A stretch of 35,199 nt of DNA from Lachnospiraceae bacterium (GTDB lineage Bacteria > Bacillota > Clostridia > Lachnospirales > Lachnospiraceae): assembly GCA_021205225.1 (NCBI GenBank), contig JAJPXX010000025.1, positions 1 through 35,199 on the forward strand, written 5' to 3'. This document shows positions 20,285-30,858 of this stretch, piece after piece. The notes beneath the pieces were generated by a model. That model searched no databases. It saw nothing but the letters and a program-made list of their open reading frames with translations, and was not told the DNA's origin. The position numbers were made by a program, and so were the translations under genes. How positions within the stretch are numbered: position 1 is the first letter of the stretch; every line of letters begins with the position of its first letter.

Positions 20285-20358
20285 CTGAGAAATGGTGAAG
20301 ACGGAACAATCAGAAGCGAAAGATTCTGTTGCTGACATATTGGTATTGGGGGATATTT

Positions 20359-20994
20359 ATGACAGTATTAGAAGAATTGCGGCAATCCATAGAAGCCGGA
20401 CATCCAAAAGAGACGGAAAAGCTGGTATCGGTAGCCCTGGAACAGCAGGTTGACTCCATGCGTATTGTGGAGGAAGCCATGATGTCGGCGATGCGCACGA
20501 TGGGAGAGCGCTATAAGGAGCAGGAGGCAGATATTCCCTCCATTCTCGCGGCAGCCCGCTGCGTCCGTTCCGGTTTCACGCTGATTGAAAAAAATGACGC
20601 TTCATTTGAGGAGCAAAACATCGGCACCGTGATTGTTGGCACCGTCGAAGGCGACCTCCATGACATCGGGAAAAACCTGGTTGCGCTGATGTTCCGCAGT
20701 GCGGGATTCAAAGTCATAGACCTTGGCGTGGATATCTCAGAAAAACAGTTCCTGAAAGCCGTCCGTGAAAATCCGGATGTGCAGATCGTGTGCATCTCTT
20801 CTCTGCTAAGCACTTCTTTGCCGGAAATGGAACAGGTGATAAAGGTGTTGCGGCGCAACGATCCGGAAAAAAAGTATAAGATCATGGTGGGCGGCGGCGC
20901 GGTGACAAAGCAGCTTGCCGAGGACATGGGTGCGGACGCGTACACGGAAAACTGTGTAGAGGCAGCGGAGGTCGCGAAGACATTTATTGTCTAA
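20359..20994 (+). CDS. corrinoid protein (B12-binding methyl carrier), copy 2
   Basis: A 211-residue methyl carrier with the same two-domain plan as copy 1: helical cap (VSVALEQQVDSMRIVEEAMM) and B12 domain with GDLHDIGKNLV, His at 101, then VCISSLLSTSLPEM and IMVGGGAVTKQLAEDMGADAY. The cobalt-ligand segment is nearly the same as in copy 1, but the cap domains differ widely, which suggests a different methyltransferase partner. ATG 20359 follows GGGGGAT by six bases; the track start at 20329 adds ten residues not seen in the family. No dedicated methyltransferase lies beside it; the restriction island begins right after, so a partner gene may have been displaced or may be elsewhere. Confidence 0.92.
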   Translation: MTVLEELRQSIEAGHPKETEKLVSVALEQQVDSMRIVEEAMMSAMRTMGERYKEQEADIPSILAAARCVRSGFTLIEKNDASFEEQNIGTVIVGTVEGDLHDIGKNLVALMFRSAGFKVIDLGVDISEKQFLKAVRENPDVQIVCISSLLSTSLPEMEQVIKVLRRNDPEKKYKIMVGGGAVTKQLAEDMGADAYTENCVEAAEVAKTFIV

Positions 20995-21042: not shown

Positions 21043-21148
21043 ATGGCAATGAATGATTTGACAGAGATTGGAGTTGCAAGGCTTCTGAATTTGATACGCG
21101 ATCAATGCGTACTGTTAGATGGCTGACAAACCATCAGGAGATGAGAAA

Positions 21149-22681
21149 ATGATTACAGGAATAATCAAAAATAAAATTGACAAAATATGGACAGACATTT
21201 GGGCGGGAGGGATTACGAATCCACTGACAGTGATTGAACAGCTGACATACCTGATGTTTATACGTTCTCTTGATGAAAAGGAACTGGAGACTGAGGAATT
21301 TGAGAATATGACCGGAGAAAAAATGGCTAAAATTTTCCCGCAGTCCGCGATTGGTCAATCCATGCGCTGGAGCAAATTCAAAAACAATGATCCGAGACAG
21401 ATTTACGATGTAATTTCACAGCGTGTATTTCCTGCAATCAAAAACCTGAAATATGGACGTCTGCCAGATTTTACCGAGCAGGGAGAGCTGATTGAAACTG
21501 AGGATGACCCGAACAGTACGAACAGCAATAATACGGCATTTGCGCGATACATGAGTGATGCTATGTTCCTGATTCCGACACCACAGATTTTGCAGAAGAT
21601 CATTACCGGACTGGATGACCTGTATGAACATGATATTGCAGATCTGGATATGCAGGGCGATTTATATGAATATATGCTGGGAAAACTGGCAACAGCCGGC
21701 CAGAACGGTCAGTTCCGGACTCCAAAGCATATTCGGGATATGATGGTAGAATTGATTCAGCCAACCCCTGATGATATTATTTGTGATCCGGCTTGCGGCA
21801 CCGCCGGGTTCCTCGTTTCTGCTGCGGAATATATACGAAAAAATTATGAGGATACCATGACTGCGGAACAGTGGGAACATTTTTCAGGAGAATTATTTAC
21901 TGGATATGATATAGATCGAACCATGCTCCGCATTTCGGCAATGAATTTGATGCTGCATTCCATCAGCAATCCGGATGTGGACTATAAAGACAGCGTATCA
22001 AAACAGAATCAGATTTCTGATAAGTTTACCGTTTGCCTTGCCAATCCTCCATTCAAAGGAACTATTGATGCCGAAAGCATTCATGACAATCTGAAAGCAG
22101 TCACAAATACAAAGAAAACGGAACTGCTGTTTCTGGCGCTGTTCCTCCGTATTATGAAGAAAGGCGGCCGCTGTGCCTGCATCGTTCCGGACGGCGTCCT
22201 GTTTGGATCATCAGCAGCGCATAAAGCGATCCGAAAAGAGCTGATTGAGAATCATCAGCTTCGTGCGGTAATTTCCATGCCATCCGGCGTTTTCAAACCC
22301 TATGCGGGTGTATCCACGGCAGTTCTTGTATTTACCAAAACTGGAGCAGGCGGAACGGATCAGATCTGGTTCTATGATATGAAAGCCGATGGATTCAGTC
22401 TGGATGATAAGCGTTCAGAGATTTCGGATAATGATATTCCAGACATCATTCAGCGGTTTCATAATCTGGAAACGGAAAAGAACAGAGAACGAACTGAACA
22501 AAGCTTCTTTGTACCGAAACAGGAGATTGTGGATAATGGATATGATCTGTCCATCAATAAGTATAAGAAGACAGAGTATGTACCGGTAGAATATCCGCCT
22601 ACCTCTGAAATTCTGGATAAGCTGGATGAATTGGAAAAAGAGATCACAAAAGGGCTTAATGAGTTAAGAGGGATGCTGTGA
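21149..22681 (+). CDS. hsdM: type I restriction-modification DNA methyltransferase subunit HsdM
   Basis: A 510-residue N6-adenine DNA methyltransferase. The N-terminal helical HsdM domain covers about 1-150. The SAM-binding motif DPACGTAGF is at 213-221 and the catalytic NPPF at 299-302 (CLANPPFKG). ATG 21149 with AGGAG 8 bases upstream is preferred; the track ATG at 21119 adds ten residues. The C-terminal helix (EILDKLDELEKEITKGLNELRGML) is the usual contact to HsdS. The gene appears intact and, with either HsdS, should form the modification trimer. Base composition from here to about 30.9 kb is visibly richer in A+T than the flanking metabolic genes, which suggests acquired DNA. Confidence 0.96.
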   Translation: MITGIIKNKIDKIWTDIWAGGITNPLTVIEQLTYLMFIRSLDEKELETEEFENMTGEKMAKIFPQSAIGQSMRWSKFKNNDPRQIYDVISQRVFPAIKNLKYGRLPDFTEQGELIETEDDPNSTNSNNTAFARYMSDAMFLIPTPQILQKIITGLDDLYEHDIADLDMQGDLYEYMLGKLATAGQNGQFRTPKHIRDMMVELIQPTPDDIICDPACGTAGFLVSAAEYIRKNYEDTMTAEQWEHFSGELFTGYDIDRTMLRISAMNLMLHSISNPDVDYKDSVSKQNQISDKFTVCLANPPFKGTIDAESIHDNLKAVTNTKKTELLFLALFLRIMKKGGRCACIVPDGVLFGSSAAHKAIRKELIENHQLRAVISMPSGVFKPYAGVSTAVLVFTKTGAGGTDQIWFYDMKADGFSLDDKRSEISDNDIPDIIQRFHNLETEKNRERTEQSFFVPKQEIVDNGYDLSINKYKKTEYVPVEYPPTSEILDKLDELEKEITKGLNELRGML

Positions 22682-22771: not shown

Positions 22772-23098
22772 ATGGCACAGGATGGAATTACCAAACGAGA
22801 CTGGGCGCTTTTCAGAGAAAAAGTTCCAGAATGGCAGGAAGCCTACATGGAAAAGCTTGTAAAAGAATACGTGGAGATGCTATCAGGAGATGGAGCCGCA
22901 TCCGATAAATTCTGGGAACTGGATAAGCGGATCAAAGCGGACAAACGCCGCAAAAGTGTGGTTATGGAAATGTGCCGCTCTGAGATGCTTTACAATATTC
23001 TTGATCTGATGCGGGAAGGTACTATTACGGTGGATGATCTGGATGATTTCAGCGAACATCTGAGGGGGACGGTAAAGCTGCTGATGGAGGGATGGTGA
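22772..23098 (+). CDS. small conserved-type protein between hsdM and hsdS
   Basis: A 108-residue charged, mostly helical protein with no signal peptide or membrane segment. It opens MAQDGITKRDWALFREKVPEWQ, has a helix rich in Lys/Arg (DKRIKADKRRKS) and an acidic end (TVDDLDDFSEHLRG). I recall similar small ORFs placed between hsdM and hsdS in Firmicute type I loci, sometimes mislabelled as transporters; nothing here supports transport. The start has TTGAGGAG upstream and lies 90 bases after hsdM, and hsdS follows in 51 bases, so it belongs to the R-M operon. A role in complex assembly or in checking restriction is only a guess. Confidence 0.75.
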   Translation: MAQDGITKRDWALFREKVPEWQEAYMEKLVKEYVEMLSGDGAASDKFWELDKRIKADKRRKSVVMEMCRSEMLYNILDLMREGTITVDDLDDFSEHLRGTVKLLMEGW

Positions 23099-23149: not shown

Positions 23150-24262
23150 ATGATTAATACAGGGAAATTTGCCGAGTTTTATGTTGATGTCACAAAAGAA
23201 GGGACGAAAATACCGCAAGATCAGTATCTTGAAGAAGGAAAATATCCTGTTATTGATCAGGGAAGACAAAATATTGCCGGCAGATGGGATAACGATGAAG
23301 GACTGTTTACGAACGTTCCAGCGATAATCTTTGGAGATCACACTCGTGCGGTTAAATACATTACGGAACCATTTTTTATTGGAGCGGATGGAGTAAAAAT
23401 ACTACGTCCGGCAAAAGCAGAAGACAATCCAAAATATCTTTATTATGCGTTGCAGGCTGCAAGAATTCCAAATCTGGGGTATAGCAGGCATTTCAAAGTA
23501 GTAAAGGACTTAGAGATAAGAACATATTCGAGAGCAGTACAAGACAAAATAGTTGTGCTTTTAGAGAAAATCGACCTGTTAATTGAGCAATACAATACTG
23601 AAATGTCCTGGATAGATCAACTCGTCAGATCCCGGTTTATCGAGATGTTTGGAGATTCAGTAAATAATCCGTTAGGACTTCCTACTGTATTGCTTTCAGA
23701 TGTTTCAGATATTGTTTCCGGAATAACAAAGGGCAGGAAGACGAATGGTGCAGAGCTATTTGAGGTTCCCTATATGGCTGTTTCAAATGTGAAGGCAGGA
23801 TATATTGATTGGAGTACCGTTAAAACAATCAGAGCAACTAAGGATGAGATCGAACAGTATTGCTTGCAACCTTTGGATGTTCTTATGACAGAAGGTGGTG
23901 ATCCAGATAAGTTGGGACGGGGTGCAATTATAAGCGCACCACCAGAAAATTGTATTCATCAGAATCACATTTTTCGTGTTCGCGTGAATAGAAATCGTCT
24001 TCTTCCACAGTATTTGGAGGAATATTTACAACATCAAAAAGCGAAGCAGTATTTCCTTGGATGTGCGAAACAGACAACAGGCATAGCAAGCATTAACATG
24101 AAACAACTTCGCGTTATGCCAGTTCTACTGCCAGAAATAAAGTTGCAGAATCAGTTCGCCGCTTTCGTGCAGGCGACCGACAAATCGAAACTGGCAATAC
24201 AGAAAAGCCTTAATGAACTGGAAATTCTGAAAAAATCATTGATGCAACAATATTTTGGATGA
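23150..24262 (+). CDS. hsdS: type I R-M specificity subunit HsdS, copy 1 (complete)
   Basis: A 370-residue two-TRD specificity protein. TRD1 covers about 1-135 and is followed by the central coiled-coil spacer (VVLLEKIDLLIEQYNTEM). TRD2 runs from the LVRSRFIEMFGD junction near 160 to about 320, and the final helix ends KKSLMQQYFG. A GAGGAGGT ribosome site is 7 bases before the start. Residues from RFIEMFGD to TDKSK are identical to copy 2 (26378-27508), while TRD1 is unrelated. This copy keeps the full C-terminal helix and follows hsdM directly, so it is the one most likely expressed in the functional complex. Confidence 0.94.
   Translation: MINTGKFAEFYVDVTKEGTKIPQDQYLEEGKYPVIDQGRQNIAGRWDNDEGLFTNVPAIIFGDHTRAVKYITEPFFIGADGVKILRPAKAEDNPKYLYYALQAARIPNLGYSRHFKVVKDLEIRTYSRAVQDKIVVLLEKIDLLIEQYNTEMSWIDQLVRSRFIEMFGDSVNNPLGLPTVLLSDVSDIVSGITKGRKTNGAELFEVPYMAVSNVKAGYIDWSTVKTIRATKDEIEQYCLQPLDVLMTEGGDPDKLGRGAIISAPPENCIHQNHIFRVRVNRNRLLPQYLEEYLQHQKAKQYFLGCAKQTTGIASINMKQLRVMPVLLPEIKLQNQFAAFVQATDKSKLAIQKSLNELEILKKSLMQQYFG
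23630..24190 (+). repeat. 561-bp direct repeat, copy A (hsdS TRD2)
   Basis: By eye the block from TCCCGGTTTATCG to GACAAATCGAAA has no difference from 26858-27418. The offset is 3228 bases and orientation is direct. Upstream of it the copies differ (CAGA versus CCGG); downstream they separate at once (CTGGC versus TATCT). Confidence 0.93.
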
Positions 24263-24278
24263 AAGGACAATGAAACAT

Positions 24279-24731
24279 ATGAAATTATATCACGGAAGTC
24301 ATATGTGCGTAGAACGGCCGGAGATTTTAACGAATGGTCACTATAAAGATTTCGGCTATGGTTTTTACTGCACGAGTCTAGAGCGGCAGGCTCGCAGATG
24401 GGCTCTGGCCAAAAAGAAAAACCATGTAGTGAATATCTATGATTACACAGAAAATAACGATCTTGAGATAATACAATTTTCGGAAATGACGGAAAAATGG
24501 CTGGACTTCATTGTTGATTGCAGGCGTGGAATTGAGCATTCCTTTGATATTGTAGAAGGACCAATGGCTGATGATACGATCTGGGATTATATCGAAGATT
24601 TTATGAATGGGAATATCAGCAGAGAGGCTTTTTGGGTCCTGGTAAAATTCAAGTATCCCACTCATCAGATCGTTTTTTGTACAAAAAAAGCGTTGCAGAC
24701 TCTGACGTATGAAAGGAGTTATCTTCTATGA
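24279..24731 (+). CDS. DUF3990 protein (ADP-ribosyltransferase-like fold)
   Basis: A 150-residue DUF3990 protein. It has the family start MKLYHGSHMCVE, the FGYGFYCTSLERQARRWA segment near residue 25, and the C-terminal THQIVFCTKKALQTL strand. The H...Y spacing (YHGS ... GFYCT) recalls the ADP-ribosyltransferase fold, which is the suspected relation of this family; enzymatic activity is not shown. The track start (TTG 24255) overlaps the end of hsdS; ATG 24279, 12 bases after GAAAGGA, matches the family. The gene overlaps its downstream partner by 4 bases (ATGA). It sits between two hsdS segments, so it is cargo of the R-M island and could be a defence or toxin component. Confidence 0.82.
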   Translation: MKLYHGSHMCVERPEILTNGHYKDFGYGFYCTSLERQARRWALAKKKNHVVNIYDYTENNDLEIIQFSEMTEKWLDFIVDCRRGIEHSFDIVEGPMADDTIWDYIEDFMNGNISREAFWVLVKFKYPTHQIVFCTKKALQTLTYERSYLL

Positions 24732-25198
24732 CAAATATATATTTCGAAGATGAAGAGGTAACTGAGGACGACCTGTATTTTTTATGTTATATGATAGAAA
24801 GAGTTGCGCGCAGGCTTCATCAGAGGGATCGTTACGTTGTAAACGGGATTGACCGGTTGGAATGGATGCGGCTGATCAGTGTGGCGAATGTTCTGCATTG
24901 TGAGAATCCGCTGGAAATTGAAGATGAATGGATAGAGGAATATGAGTTACAATCTGGGAACTTTGATGCTCTTGACGTAGATGGAGAACTGGCTAAAATT
25001 ATCCCAACGCCCACACAAATGGGAAAGGTTTATCAGCGGCTGATCTTACAGACATTAGGGTCAGAAGAGAACTATGTGGATGGCCTCATTCGGGTGTATA
25101 ATGATGAATTATGTGAAACCCTGGATAACTATACATGCGGAGCATTCTATGAACCATCCTATTATATTACGAGAGCGTATTATAACGGTGGATTCTGA
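24728..25198 (+). CDS. DUF3990 partner, unknown acidic protein
   Basis: A 156-residue acidic protein I do not recognise. It starts MTNIYFEDEEVTEDDLYFL, is rich in Glu and Asp, and ends in an aromatic tail (EPSYYITRAYYNGGF). It has no signal peptide, membrane segment or obvious DNA-binding motif. ATGA overlap with the DUF3990 gene and GAAAGGAG inside the end of that gene indicate translational coupling, so the two products likely act together. An antidote or activator role for the ADP-ribosyltransferase-like neighbour is an inference from gene order only. Confidence 0.75.
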   Translation: MTNIYFEDEEVTEDDLYFLCYMIERVARRLHQRDRYVVNGIDRLEWMRLISVANVLHCENPLEIEDEWIEEYELQSGNFDALDVDGELAKIIPTPTQMGKVYQRLILQTLGSEENYVDGLIRVYNDELCETLDNYTCGAFYEPSYYITRAYYNGGF

Positions 25199-25305: not shown

Positions 25306-25350
25306 TGAATGGGGCGCAGGATGATACGGTACAGAAAGGACTGTACTATC

Positions 25351-26343
25351 ATGAACGAAGAAATCATCACAGAAATTACCAGAAAAATGCTCCCTTATCT
25401 TGACAATGCGCAACTGGAGCAGTTGCAGGATGTTCTCCATCATTATTTATGGAATGTTACAATTGTTGAGTCTGAAGAAAAATATGAAATTGCAGAAAAA
25501 TCTAATAATGAATTGCTTGAATTATTCTTGTCGGCAAAATGCGTAGAAGGCTGTAGCGAGAAGACAATGCATTATTACGAGACTACGATTGCCAAGATGT
25601 TTCTGACGATAGATATTCATGTGACCCATATGCAGACAGATGATCTTCGCAATTATCTTTCTGAATATCAGAAGAATAGACAGTGTAGCAAAAGCAACAT
25701 TGATAATATACGCCGGGTCTTGTCCAGCTTTTTCTCGTGGTTGGAAGAAGAAAATTATATTTTAAAGAGTCCAATGAGACGTATTCATAAGATTCGTACA
25801 GCTAAAACAGTTAAAGAAACGTACAGTGATGAATCGCTAGAAATTATGCGTGATCAATGCAGTAATATTCGTGATTTGGCAATCATTGATATGCTGGCTT
25901 CAACAGGTATGCGTGTGGGAGAATTAGTAAAGCTGAATATTGTAGACATTGATTTTGAAAACAGGGAATGCGTGGTTTTCGGAAAAGGGAGCAAAGAACG
26001 CCCGGTGTACTTTGATGCACGAACGAAGATTCATCTTAAGAATTATCTTGAAAGCCGGTCAGACAATAATCCGGCACTTTTCGTGTCGCTACAGAAACCG
26101 TATGCGAGACTGGAAATAAGTGGTGTTGAAATTCGGCTGAGACAGCTTGGAAGAAAACTTGGGATACCGAAGGTACATCCTCACAAGTTCCGCAGAACAT
26201 TGGCAACAAGGGCAATTGATAAGGGAATGCCTGTTGAACAGGTACAAAAGCTCCTCGGACACGCTAAAATTGATACTACGATGCAATATGCTATGGTGGA
26301 TCAGAATAATGTAAAGAATAGCCACAAAAAATATATAGCTTAA
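25351..26343 (+). CDS. tyrosine recombinase (XerC/phage integrase family)
   Basis: A 330-residue tyrosine recombinase. A SAM-like N-terminal core-binding domain covers about 52-145. The catalytic domain has Arg188 in STGMRVGELVKL, a lysine in VFGKGSKERPV, HKFRR (His278, Arg281), LGHAKI (His304) and the nucleophile Tyr313 in MQYAMV, so all catalytic residues are present. ATG 25351 with GAAAGGA about 11 bases upstream is preferred to the track start at 25309. Recombinases in type I loci are known to shuffle hsdS genes; its place between a decayed hsdS and hsdS copy 2 fits that role. It could also act as the integrase of the whole island, but no attachment repeats were found at the island ends. 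Confidence 0.93.
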   Translation: MNEEIITEITRKMLPYLDNAQLEQLQDVLHHYLWNVTIVESEEKYEIAEKSNNELLELFLSAKCVEGCSEKTMHYYETTIAKMFLTIDIHVTHMQTDDLRNYLSEYQKNRQCSKSNIDNIRRVLSSFFSWLEEENYILKSPMRRIHKIRTAKTVKETYSDESLEIMRDQCSNIRDLAIIDMLASTGMRVGELVKLNIVDIDFENRECVVFGKGSKERPVYFDARTKIHLKNYLESRSDNNPALFVSLQKPYARLEISGVEIRLRQLGRKLGIPKVHPHKFRRTLATRAIDKGMPVEQVQKLLGHAKIDTTMQYAMVDQNNVKNSHKKYIA

Positions 26344-26377: not shown

Positions 26378-27508
26378 ATGAGAAAGATACATCTCGGCGA
26401 TGTTTGTAAACGTGGCTCATCAAATATTGCACTGAAAGATTTAGACGGTAACGATGGCTGTTATCCAATTTATGGCGCTAGTGGTTTTATCAAGAATATA
26501 GATTTTTATCATCAGGAACGGGAGTATATAGCTGTTGTTAAAGATGGAGCAGGGATAGGACGTACAATGCTTCTTCCGGCGAAGTCATCAGTGATAGGCA
26601 CTTTGCAATATTTAATACCGAATTCCGACTCCGAAATTTCAACGAGATATTTATACTATGCAATAACGGCAATGAATTTGTCAAAGTATTTTAGCGGTGC
26701 TACTATTCCGCATATATACTTTAAAGATTATCAGAAGGAGTTAGTAAAAGTACCAGACCTAGTAGAACAGGATAGGATTGCAGGGATTTTTGAGAAAATT
26801 GATGCTACTATAGCACTTAGAAAGGAACAACAGGTTGAACTTGATAAACTCGTCCGGTCCCGGTTTATCGAGATGTTTGGAGATTCAGTAAATAATCCGT
26901 TAGGACTTCCTACTGTATTGCTTTCAGATGTTTCAGATATTGTTTCCGGAATAACAAAGGGCAGGAAGACGAATGGTGCAGAGCTATTTGAGGTTCCCTA
27001 TATGGCTGTTTCAAATGTGAAGGCAGGATATATTGATTGGAGTACCGTTAAAACAATCAGAGCAACTAAGGATGAGATCGAACAGTATTGCTTGCAACCT
27101 TTGGATGTTCTTATGACAGAAGGTGGTGATCCAGATAAGTTGGGACGGGGTGCAATTATAAGCGCACCACCAGAAAATTGTATTCATCAGAATCACATTT
27201 TTCGTGTTCGCGTGAATAGAAATCGTCTTCTTCCACAGTATTTGGAGGAATATTTACAACATCAAAAAGCGAAGCAGTATTTCCTTGGATGTGCGAAACA
27301 GACAACAGGCATAGCAAGCATTAACATGAAACAACTTCGCGTTATGCCAGTTCTACTGCCAGAAATAAAGTTGCAGAATCAGTTCGCCGCTTTCGTGCAG
27401 GCGACCGACAAATCGAAATATCTTAGCCATTTGTGTATCGACATCTGCTGTATGACAGCAAATAAATATAGACAGGAGAGGATGCTATGTCAAACTTTGA
27501 ATTTCTAA
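26378..27508 (+). CDS. hsdS: type I R-M specificity subunit HsdS, copy 2 (chimeric, altered C-terminus)
   Basis: A 376-residue HsdS. TRD1 (MRKIHLGDVCKRGSSNIALK to about 140) is unrelated to copy 1, and the central spacer reads IAGIFEKIDATIALRKEQQVELDKL. From RSRFIEMFGD to TDKSK it is identical to copy 1. Right after the repeat the frame runs into unrelated sequence (YLSHLCIDICC...), replacing the final 20-odd residues of the normal C-terminal helix, and the tail overlaps the hsdR start by 22 bases. The junction falls at ATCGAAA, the same place where copy 1 and the remnant differ. It may encode a second DNA specificity or be a storage copy; the missing helix could weaken HsdM contact. Confidence 0.9.
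   Translation: MRKIHLGDVCKRGSSNIALKDLDGNDGCYPIYGASGFIKNIDFYHQEREYIAVVKDGAGIGRTMLLPAKSSVIGTLQYLIPNSDSEISTRYLYYAITAMNLSKYFSGATIPHIYFKDYQKELVKVPDLVEQDRIAGIFEKIDATIALRKEQQVELDKLVRSRFIEMFGDSVNNPLGLPTVLLSDVSDIVSGITKGRKTNGAELFEVPYMAVSNVKAGYIDWSTVKTIRATKDEIEQYCLQPLDVLMTEGGDPDKLGRGAIISAPPENCIHQNHIFRVRVNRNRLLPQYLEEYLQHQKAKQYFLGCAKQTTGIASINMKQLRVMPVLLPEIKLQNQFAAFVQATDKSKYLSHLCIDICCMTANKYRQERMLCQTLNF
26858..27418 (+). repeat. 561-bp direct repeat, copy B (hsdS TRD2)
   Basis: This is the second copy of the block at 23630-24190, in the same orientation and apparently identical. The 3228-base unit between repeat starts carries the DUF3990 pair, the hsdS remnant, the recombinase and TRD1 of copy 2, all of which would be lost by recombination between the repeats. 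Confidence 0.93.
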
Positions 27509-29748
27509 AAGAGAAAAAAGAATACGTACTTTTTGCGTCCGCTGCGATTGAAGCGGAAAAGGTATACGTCACATCTCCTGCTATGTGCGCGGTCGGATGC
27601 AGAAAGGCGCTTGAATTGGCTGTGAAGTGGGTATATTCTGCGGATAATACAATGCAGATGCCCTATAAAGATAACCTCCAGTCTCTGATTCATGAGCAGA
27701 CATTCCGCTTTGCAGTGGACTATAACACCTGGGGAAAACTTCCCTATATTATCAAGCTTGGGAACCTGGCGGTGCATACAGAGCGAAATGTGCAGGCAAC
27801 GGATGCTCTGGCTTCTTTACGTGCATTGTTTGAGTTTATTCAATGGGTGGATTATTGCTATGGCAGTGACTACATAGAGCGCAAATTTGATGAGTTGCAG
27901 GTTCCGAAAGAACAAGTTGTAGTTGACACGAAGAAAATCAAGGAACAAGAGAGTCTGCTTGATGAAAAGGAAGCGGAAATTGAAAAATTACGTAGGCAGA
28001 TCGAGAAAATGTCAGAGCAGTATACAAGTGCCAAAGAACAGCATAAGCAGGATCGTACATTTACTGCAGAGGATTTGTCGGAATTTAAAACCAGAAAAAT
28101 ATATATTGATGTGGACATGAAGCAGATGGGGTGGAAGTTTGCTGGTACCGACGCAGATGTGCAGGAGGAATATCCGGTTGACGATATGGCTGGTGTTATC
28201 GGACAGAAAGGGTATGCTGATTATGTGTTATTTGGGAAAGATGGCTTACCTTTAGCTGTGGTAGAAGCAAAGCGAACCAGTAAAGACCCGAACACCGGAC
28301 GGAAACAGGCAATGTTATATGCGGATTGCCTGGAAAAGAAATTCGGCAGGCGCCCGGTTATGTTTACGACCAATGGTTTTGACACTTATTATTGGGATGA
28401 TCAGACCAGTATACAGCGAAAAGTAAGTTGTATTTTTAGCAGGGATGGTTTGCAGAAACTGATTAATCGGCGGATGGAGCATAGAGATTTGATGTCGATT
28501 CCGATTGATGATCGGATTACAGACCGCTATTACCAGAAAGAAGCGATTCGAGCGGTATGTGAGCAGATTGAGTCTGGCTTTCGCAAACACTTGCTGGTAA
28601 TGGCTACTGGAACAGGAAAAACTAGGACGGCGGCGAGCCTTACGGATGTTTTGAGCCGTGCTGGTTATGTTACGAATATTCTGTTTCTTGCGGATCGTAC
28701 TGCGCTAGTGAAGCAGGCAAAAGATGATTTTAAAAATTATCTGCCGGAGATGTCCCTGTGCAATCTGTGTTCCAATAAAGATGATAGTAATGCCCGCATT
28801 GTGTTTTCTACTTATCCAACTATGCTGAACGCGATTGACCAGACGAAAACGGCAGACGGTATCCCGCAGTTTACGCCAGAACATTTTGATTTGATCATAA
28901 TAGATGAAAGCCATAGGAGTATTTTCAAAAAATATCGTGCGATTTTTGAATATTTTGACGCAATTATGGTTGGACTGACAGCAACCCCGAAAACAGATGT
29001 AGACCGTAACACATATGACTTTTTCGAAATGGAACATGGTGTGCCGACTTATGCGTATGATTATGAAACTGCGGTAGAAAAGGATCATGTGCTGGTTCCG
29101 TATTATAACTATGAGGTCAAAACTAAATTCCTTGATGACGGCATTACCTATGATGATTTGTCAGAAGAAGATAAAGAGCGTTATGAGGATGACTTTATTG
29201 AAGATGGAATGATGCCGGATTTCATTCCATCTGCGCAGTTAAATAAATTTGTATTCAATGAAACTACTGTTGATATTGTTCTGCAGGATTTGATGGAAAG
29301 AGGAATTAAAGTTGCCGGCGGTGAACGAATTGGCAAGACCATTATATTCGCTCAAAACAAGCGTCATGCGGAGTTCATTCTGGAACGCTTCAATAAGCTT
29401 TACCCCAAGTATAAGGGTAAGTTTGCGCAGAGAGTGATTTGTGACGACACATATGCACAGACGATCATTGACGATTTCAAGGTCGCTGATAAAGAACCGC
29501 ATATTGTCGTTTCAGTTGATATGATGGATACTGGCATTGATGTGCCGGAGTGTGTGAACCTTGTATTCTTCAAAAAGGTTCGGTCGAAGGCAAAATTCTG
29601 GCAGATGATTGGCCGAGGAACCCGTCTGTGTAAAGAATTGACGTGTCTGGACCAGATGGATGGCGAGTACATAGACAAAAGACGATTTCTTATTTTTGAC
29701 TACTGTGGGAATTTTGAATATTTCCGGGAGTATAAGGAAGGGTACTAG
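27487..29748 (+). CDS. hsdR: type I restriction endonuclease HsdR, N-terminal part ended by in-frame TAG
   Basis: 753 residues of an HsdR normally about 1,120 long. A DUF4145-like domain covers 1-130, then a coiled coil (145-190). The PD-(D/E)xK nuclease follows, with Asp245 in GYADYVLFG and Glu260-Ala-Lys262 in VVEAKRT. The SF2 motor has Walker A MATGTGKT (372-379), a DESH box in IIIDESHRS, GLTATPK, and motif VI QMIGRGTRLCKE. It stops with TAG at 29746 right after YFREYKEGY. Beyond the stop, the same frame continues TRETKYLSEAILGKQIK, the expected next HsdR residues. One point mutation explains the break. The nuclease and motor are present, but without the C-terminal domain that binds HsdM/HsdS this product probably cannot restrict. 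Confidence 0.92.
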   Translation: MSNFEFLKEKKEYVLFASAAIEAEKVYVTSPAMCAVGCRKALELAVKWVYSADNTMQMPYKDNLQSLIHEQTFRFAVDYNTWGKLPYIIKLGNLAVHTERNVQATDALASLRALFEFIQWVDYCYGSDYIERKFDELQVPKEQVVVDTKKIKEQESLLDEKEAEIEKLRRQIEKMSEQYTSAKEQHKQDRTFTAEDLSEFKTRKIYIDVDMKQMGWKFAGTDADVQEEYPVDDMAGVIGQKGYADYVLFGKDGLPLAVVEAKRTSKDPNTGRKQAMLYADCLEKKFGRRPVMFTTNGFDTYYWDDQTSIQRKVSCIFSRDGLQKLINRRMEHRDLMSIPIDDRITDRYYQKEAIRAVCEQIESGFRKHLLVMATGTGKTRTAASLTDVLSRAGYVTNILFLADRTALVKQAKDDFKNYLPEMSLCNLCSNKDDSNARIVFSTYPTMLNAIDQTKTADGIPQFTPEHFDLIIIDESHRSIFKKYRAIFEYFDAIMVGLTATPKTDVDRNTYDFFEMEHGVPTYAYDYETAVEKDHVLVPYYNYEVKTKFLDDGITYDDLSEEDKERYEDDFIEDGMMPDFIPSAQLNKFVFNETTVDIVLQDLMERGIKVAGGERIGKTIIFAQNKRHAEFILERFNKLYPKYKGKFAQRVICDDTYAQTIIDDFKVADKEPHIVVSVDMMDTGIDVPECVNLVFFKKVRSKAKFWQMIGRGTRLCKELTCLDQMDGEYIDKRRFLIFDYCGNFEYFREYKEGY

Positions 29749-29766
29749 ACAAGAGAGACTAAATAC

Positions 29767-30858
29767 TTGTCAGAGGCGATTTTAGGAAAACAAATCAAAC
29801 TGGCGTCAGCTTTACAGGAGGCTGCATTTTCCGATCTGGAGTTTCAGGGCTGGAGAGGTGAAATCGTATCCGAATGTCAGAATCAGGTACGGCAACTATC
29901 AGAGGATCTGGTAGAGGTACGCCTGCGGCGGGAATATGTAGAAAAGTATAAAAAAACAATAGCGTTCGATTGCATCAGCGAAAATGACAAAGGCGAATTA
30001 CTACAGCATATTGCTCCAGTGATTCATTTGGACGATAATGATGAACTGGCGTTGCGCTTTGATAATTTTATGTATGGATTGATGCTTGCCTCTGTTGAAC
30101 AGATGCCGTCCTTGAAACATGCGAGAAACCAGCTCTGTGACATTGCTGCTTTGCTGGAACACAAATCCACAATTCCGCAGGTGAAAGTGAAGCTTTCGGT
30201 TCTAAAAGAAGTGCAGACAGATGCTTTTTGGGATGCAAATGATCTGCTGCAGTTTGAAAAAGCTCGGAAAGAACTGCGTGACCTGATAAAGTTCCTGGAC
30301 AATAATGACCCGCACAATCCGATTATAACAAGGCTCACTGATCCAGTGATTGACCAGCAGGAAGGGAATCCTCTCGAAGCAGCCTATGATTTTGAGGATT
30401 ACAGGAAAAAGGTTAACCGTTACGTCATGGAACATGGCAATACAATGGCTATCTATAAGCTGACACATAATATCCGGCTCTCCGACGGCGATTATCAGGA
30501 GTTACAGCGTGTACTTACAAGCGAATTGGGAAGCAGAGAGGATTATCAGCGGGAATATGGAGACACACCTTTTGGTCTGCTGATCCGTAAAATTGCGAAA
30601 ATGGATCATGATGCAGCCATGCAGGCGTTTTCTGCTTTCATCAACGATGAATCTTTGAACCAAAGGCAGATTGCTTTTGTATATAAGATTATTAATCATA
30701 TTGAGCAGAACGGATATATGGAAAACGTTGCCGAGCTGACAAAGCCACCGTTTGACAAGCCGTTGAGCTTCACAAAGCTTTTTGATGCGAAAACCAGAAC
30801 TGCGCTGGTAGCTACAATCAATCAGATAAAAGAGAATGCGGTGGCTGTTGTCGCTTAA
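29767..30858 (+). CDS. hsdR: HsdR C-terminal part (separated by the amber codon)
   Basis: 363 residues matching the helical C-terminal region of HsdR, which contacts the modification core. It is in the same frame as the upstream part, with only seven codons (from TAG) between stop 29746 and this TTG. The TTG is an ordinary leucine codon of the intact gene; only a weak AGAGAG lies upstream, so independent translation is doubtful. No further stop or frameshift occurs up to the natural TAA at 30858. This suggests a recent mutation, readthrough, or a sequencing error. Treat 27487-30858 as one broken hsdR unless translation of this part is shown. Confidence 0.75.
   Translation: MSEAILGKQIKLASALQEAAFSDLEFQGWRGEIVSECQNQVRQLSEDLVEVRLRREYVEKYKKTIAFDCISENDKGELLQHIAPVIHLDDNDELALRFDNFMYGLMLASVEQMPSLKHARNQLCDIAALLEHKSTIPQVKVKLSVLKEVQTDAFWDANDLLQFEKARKELRDLIKFLDNNDPHNPIITRLTDPVIDQQEGNPLEAAYDFEDYRKKVNRYVMEHGNTMAIYKLTHNIRLSDGDYQELQRVLTSELGSREDYQREYGDTPFGLLIRKIAKMDHDAAMQAFSAFINDESLNQRQIAFVYKIINHIEQNGYMENVAELTKPPFDKPLSFTKLFDAKTRTALVATINQIKENAVAVVA

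Follow-up and report, generated by a model that had tools for sequence, protein, structure and literature searches.

Closest described systems

The TRDs of the pneumococcal tvr locus are shuffled by a tyrosine recombinase, through excision and reintegration events that take place between direct repeats (PMC6265443). Loss of hsdR of the kind considered here is already known in other bacteria: a passage of one published report gives a nonsense precedent in the hsdR (Sau1) of S. aureus RN4220 (PMC5399793), and in M. agalactiae PG2 and four other strains hsdR is truncated while type I methylation persists (PMC9465063). The helical domain of EcoR124I HsdR is required for cleavage, translocation and ATPase activity and is thought to touch the methyltransferase, and point changes at the interface of this domain kill restriction while assembly persists (PMC5248579).

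We analyzed a window of 35,199 nucleotides from a Lachnospiraceae bacterium (GCA_021205225.1, contig JAJPXX010000025.1), which holds a type I hsd locus with the following features.

21119-22681, + strand: hsdM, type I N6-adenine methyltransferase, 520 aa, intact (Pfam HsdM_N and N6_Mtase; PADLOC MTase_I, 2.8e-184)
22772-23098, + strand: 108-aa ORF between hsdM and hsdS copy 1, with no Pfam or PADLOC match
23150-24262, + strand: hsdS copy 1 (hsdS1), 370 aa, complete with N-TRD and C-TRD (Methylase_S; PADLOC Specificity_I)
23630-24190, + strand: hsdS1 C-TRD cassette, direct repeat copy 1 (561 bp identical to 26858-27418)
24255-24731, + strand: DUF3990 protein, PDC-M10A, first of a pair (Pfam DUF3990, 1.1e-50; PADLOC PDC-M10A, 3.9e-78)
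24728-25198, + strand: PDC-M10B protein, second of the pair (PADLOC PDC-M10B, 1.7e-79)
25309-26343, + strand: tyrosine recombinase, 344 aa, intact (Phage_integrase, 2.5e-34)
26378-27508, + strand: hsdS copy 2 (hsdS2), 376 aa, complete (Methylase_S, 1.2e-23)
26858-27418, + strand: hsdS2 C-TRD cassette, direct repeat copy 2 (exact 561-bp match to copy 1)
27487-29748, + strand: hsdR part before the stop, 753 aa (Pfam DUF4145, HSDR_N nuclease, and ResIII and Helicase_C, both RecA motor domains)
29746-29748, + strand: in-frame TAG, codon 754, a sense codon in all aligned relatives
29749-30858, + strand: hsdR part after the stop, 369 codons, helical C-terminal region with EcoEI_R_C (Pfam)

A tvr-like type I locus

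The products have the composition of a type I system, with HsdM combining N6-MTase and HsdM_N domains and HsdS carrying two TRD regions. In relatives, hsdM orthologs are 94-95% identical and lie upstream of an intact hsdR, and the tyrosine recombinase is 94-96% identical in three loci (L034, L040 and L072). The 108-aa ORF occurs at this position in close relatives only, with 73-93% identity in L072, L033 and L034. hsdS2 overlaps the start of hsdR by 22 nt, and its tail is homologous to the sequence preceding hsdR in L032 and L035. The DUF3990/PDC-M10B pair, kept in L034, L105 and L120, constitutes a set of PADLOC phage-defense candidates inside the hsd operon.

Methylase_S is matched in two stretches of each hsdS copy; the N-TRDs of hsdS1 and hsdS2 differ, whereas their C-TRD is identical. 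The edges of the 561-bp repeat encode SRFIEMFGD and TDKSK and recur as direct repeats in relatives, several of them directly after the recombinase, while no inverted repeats were found. The exactness of the C-TRD repeat suggests a recent exchange, for which the tvr-like recombinase and homologous recombination are both candidates.

The gene order (hsdM, hsdS, a gene pair, tyrosine recombinase, hsdS, hsdR, in a single orientation), which is also found in L034 and L105, is that of the pneumococcal SpnIV tvr, and in both systems direct repeats flank the TRD cassettes in a "2+2" arrangement (PMC6265443). The two differ, however, in that the window carries DUF3990/PDC-M10B where tvr has phd-doc, and in that its hsdR bears a stop whereas the tvr gene is active. 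SpnIV tvr also has an attenuator hairpin, whereas none was detected before the window recombinase (z = +0.98), and no terminator-like site was found on the + strand from the pair to the recombinase. Because of the different gene pair and the lack of an attenuator hairpin, we designate the locus as tvr-like instead of filing it as tvr. By analogy with tvr, specificity switching of hsdS may take place at this locus.

An in-frame TAG codon interrupts hsdR

The ORFs at 27487-29748 (753 aa, ending in TAG) and 29767-30858 (363 aa, starting with TTG) share a common frame. Translation of 27487-30858 yields a single internal stop at codon 754, the TAG at 29746-29748, with the sequence across it reading ...YKEGY*TRETKYLSEAILGK... 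The frame remains open for 369 codons past the TAG up to the normal end of the gene, with unbroken homology that includes EcoEI_R_C, and the next in-frame start codon downstream is the TTG at 29767, corresponding to codon 761. The order of domains is that of EcoEI-type HsdR proteins (PF08463), in which a nuclease is followed by RecA1, RecA2 and a helical C-terminus with EcoEI_R_C; every one of these domains is encoded in one frame, but TAG at codon 754 interrupts what would be a single chain. Since intact orthologs extend over residues 1-1123, hsdR is one continuous gene and not a chance adjacency of two ORFs. The observation of the sequence-only reading, that a TAG codon splits a single hsdR into two same-frame ORFs, is thus confirmed as written, and its statement that the nuclease and helicase motifs, hsdM and hsdS1 are intact is borne out by Pfam and PADLOC domain matches, to which hsdS2 adds a second complete specificity ORF.

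HSDR_N occurs only once in the genome, so that no second HsdR is available to serve HsdM and HsdS. The locus hence displays the sequence features of an r-m+ state of the RN4220 kind, namely an hsdR stop with intact orthologs, intact hsdM and hsdS, and a sole HsdR. RN4220 differs from the case at hand in being a laboratory strain of another host, and the same passage on it describes no hsdS-shuffling locus (PMC5399793). A cell with this stop, with intact HsdM and HsdS and with no further HsdR would naturally be predicted to methylate but not to restrict, as the sequence-only reading had proposed.

Codon 754 is a sense codon in related HsdR proteins

Relatives were compared using one genome per species. 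Among 60 relatives, four (G001, G033, G013 and G042) present stop-free hsdR genes with 93, 93, 92 and 80% identity, respectively, over residues 1-1123, and all four have a Glu codon at position 754. At this codon the window hsdR differs from G001 and G033 by a single base, TAG being a G>T change. None of the 37 other aligned HsdR sequences has a stop at this position, which is occupied by Glu (31), Gln (2), Asp (2), Ala (1) or Thr (1).

A stop at the same place was also absent from 80 named relatives and from searches at the genus and family levels. In the genus search (47 genomes), a stop was found, at the threshold used, solely in the window copy of hsdR; the family search (397 genomes) returned two other stop-bearing matches, G231 (TAA) and G343 (TGA), the latter with a frame ending near residue 713. 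The 80 named relatives comprise 69 with intact hsdR, four cut by contig ends and four with broken genes (stop at 242 in L128, stop at 587 in L132, end at 590 in L142 and deletion in L147). The remaining matches (L141, L144 and L150) begin at approximately residue 193 and were rejected as broken copies, as they look like natural variants without the N-terminal domain. The base rate of broken hsdR among relatives is about 5%, at positions unrelated to the stop in the window.

Elsewhere, the G695 hsdR (L201:690-2830) is interrupted twice, by a frameshift at about residue 425 and by an in-frame TAG at about residue 958; in the AlphaFold model of the ortholog, the loop holding the latter is disordered. 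No near sister copies were found in plasmids, phages or viral contigs; one viral contig carries a 74% relative.

Age of the stop and sequence quality

Private changes after the stop in the window hsdR (12 nonsynonymous and 30 synonymous) did not differ from those in three sisters (44 and 101; P = 1), and this comparison provided no sign of relaxed selection. A wholly neutral branch, which would give approximately 70% nonsynonymous changes, was rejected (P = 6e-8), and the upper bound for the neutral share of the post-stop branch is about 30%, which argues that the stop is young. On these substitution patterns, the alternatives are a young stop or a C-terminal part of HsdR that would still be in use.

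The normal constraint on the C-terminal part of hsdR would also fit the possibility that the TAG is a sequencing or consensus error or the product of a strain mixture, in which case it would be absent or a minor allele and hsdR intact. The genome is a draft assembly of 240 contigs (98.6% complete), and all relatives have a sense codon at position 754. Private changes over 27487-30855 also show an excess of G:C>T:A (27/154 versus 31/392 in three sisters; P = 0.002 in a post hoc test), the class to which the G>T change of the stop belongs, and this excess may stem from mutational bias or from damage-type errors. Substitution errors in an assembled consensus are nevertheless uncommon. In-frame stops are rare elsewhere in the genome, affecting one of 118 ABC_tran matches and none of 20 ResIII matches, which argues against a generally poor assembly, and the remainder of hsdR is clean. 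An error at codon 754 is unlikely, though a real contender.

No machinery for bypassing the TAG was found

Programmed readthrough or recoding of the TAG, through pyrrolysine insertion or a suppressor tRNA, would restore a full-length HsdR. The identity of the codon and the conservation of the downstream frame are compatible with this scenario, and a corrinoid-type protein gene, recognized by eye, lies nearby at 20329-20994; pyrrolysine enzymes occur near such genes in other organisms. The genome, however, yielded no PylRS (best match 24 bits, below the cut-off of 178), and no tRNA with a CUA anticodon, nonsense suppressors included, was present among the tRNAs found in this 98.6% complete draft. 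No hairpin above the level of shuffled sequence follows the stop (z = 0.04), TAG serves as an ordinary terminator in two of the 26 window genes, and no relative has a stop at this position. Given the absence of PylRS, CUA tRNA and hairpin, recoding is unlikely; both pyrrolysine recoding and readthrough assisted by a hairpin or a suppressor tRNA were rejected. The exception for readthrough that the sequence-only reading had allowed is thereby largely refuted, and production of a full-length protein by this route appears extremely improbable.

The stop lies between the motor and helical domains

In the AlphaFold2 model of an intact ortholog (L145), based on a 37-sequence alignment (mean pLDDT 78, pTM 0.51), the motor domains are joined to an all-helical C-terminal region by a linker of low confidence (residues 750-757), the last motor helix spanning residues 744-748 and the first C-terminal helix residues 761-775. 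In this model the stop at 754 would fall in the interdomain linker, and the TTG would correspond to residue 761, the first of the helical domain. Among solved structures, a V. vulnificus HsdR fragment (3h1t) is nearest, with SauUSI and EcoR124I HsdR ranking next. The pre-stop product has approximately the extent of 3h1t (query 195-717 matching chain 22-546 of 590); in 3h1t, however, it is the crystallized protein that is a fragment, whereas the truncation in the window is encoded by the gene. By analogy with EcoR124I, an HsdR without its helical C-terminal region should not restrict.

The location of the stop in a domain linker makes a two-piece HsdR a candidate, in which the 753-aa nuclease and motor chain and a helical chain started separately at TTG 29767 would assemble in trans on HsdM and still restrict. 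The coincidence of the next start with the first residue of the modeled helical domain, together with undiminished constraint on the C-terminal part, points in this direction, and the same joint in EcoR124I has few contacts and a short linker (PMC5248579). Upstream of the TTG, however, there is just AGAGAG, a sequence already present in intact relatives, and a Ser/Thr column six residues past the stop is replaced by Tyr in the window. No HsdR split at the joint between motor and C-terminal regions was found in the 80 named loci, nor, in a search across the phylum, among the short PF08463 frames of 399 genomes that could be placed, some being too divergent for placement; the short frames inspected correspond to frameshifts, stops or contig edges, all at other places. 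A random stop would fall in the 750-757 linker with a chance of about 0.7%, and in any low-confidence loop with a chance of about 5%, so the coincidence of stop and linker could have arisen by chance. The suggestion that the two parts might reassemble thus stands as regards the position of the stop, but no relative is split at this joint, and we regard a functional two-piece enzyme as decidedly improbable. If true, this would be a type I restriction subunit that is split in nature, encoded at a locus whose specificity shuffles.

The stop shows no sign of being a switch

The sequence-only reading had also seen in the stop a switch to the modification-only state that a regulatory methylation system would need. 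Such a selected conversion to a phase-variable methyltransferase could be favored because shuffling of specificity exposes unmethylated sites to self-cutting, and the locus does have a shuffling architecture, with a recombinase and direct TRD repeats. The hsd locus of M. agalactiae similarly combines a truncated hsdR with a recombinase gene and several, variable hsdS genes (PMC9465063), and one relative (G002, L038:854-1524) harbors the DUF3990 pair and a truncated recombinase followed directly by the C-terminal remnant of a distant hsdR. The G002 locus represents, in its own right, another route to hsdR loss.

By its architecture, the recombination system has hsdS specificity, rather than hsdR, as its target. 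In M. agalactiae, hsdR is disrupted by 2 nt inserted into a poly(A) tract, a change that is potentially reversible (PMC9465063), whereas the stop in the window is a simple base substitution, around which neither a repeat tract nor an invertible element is visible. The hsdR genes at the recombinase-bearing loci of relatives are intact, and pneumococcal tvr retains its active hsdR (PMC6265443). Stops in the family are sporadic and located elsewhere, with every other HsdR examined having a sense codon at position 754. These data do not support the switch proposal and give no sign that the hsdR stop itself is a switch; a single case is, moreover, insufficient to demonstrate selection. A selected conversion to a regulatory methyltransferase therefore seems very improbable.

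Recent loss of restriction as the probable explanation

The explanation that we consider probable is that the TAG is a recent, strain-specific single-base nonsense mutation in the only hsdR of the genome, leaving an r-m+ cell. According to this proposal, a single-base substitution would have converted codon 754 to TAG, so that HsdR would be made as a 753-residue protein that keeps its nuclease and motor domains and lacks the helical region containing EcoEI_R_C. This region is needed for restriction in type I enzymes and probably also for joining HsdM, and the HsdM and two complete HsdS left behind would be expected to methylate without cutting. We infer that the TAG is real in the organism, and that restriction has been lost while methylation continues.

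If real, this locus would provide a natural r-m+ example at a tvr-like locus in an uncultured gut Lachnospiraceae-type bacterium. As its specificity may still shuffle with restriction off, methylation could be studied there apart from cutting. Breaks in hsdR are sporadic across the widespread HsdR family, affecting about 5% of relatives, and the loss described here would otherwise represent ordinary gene loss.
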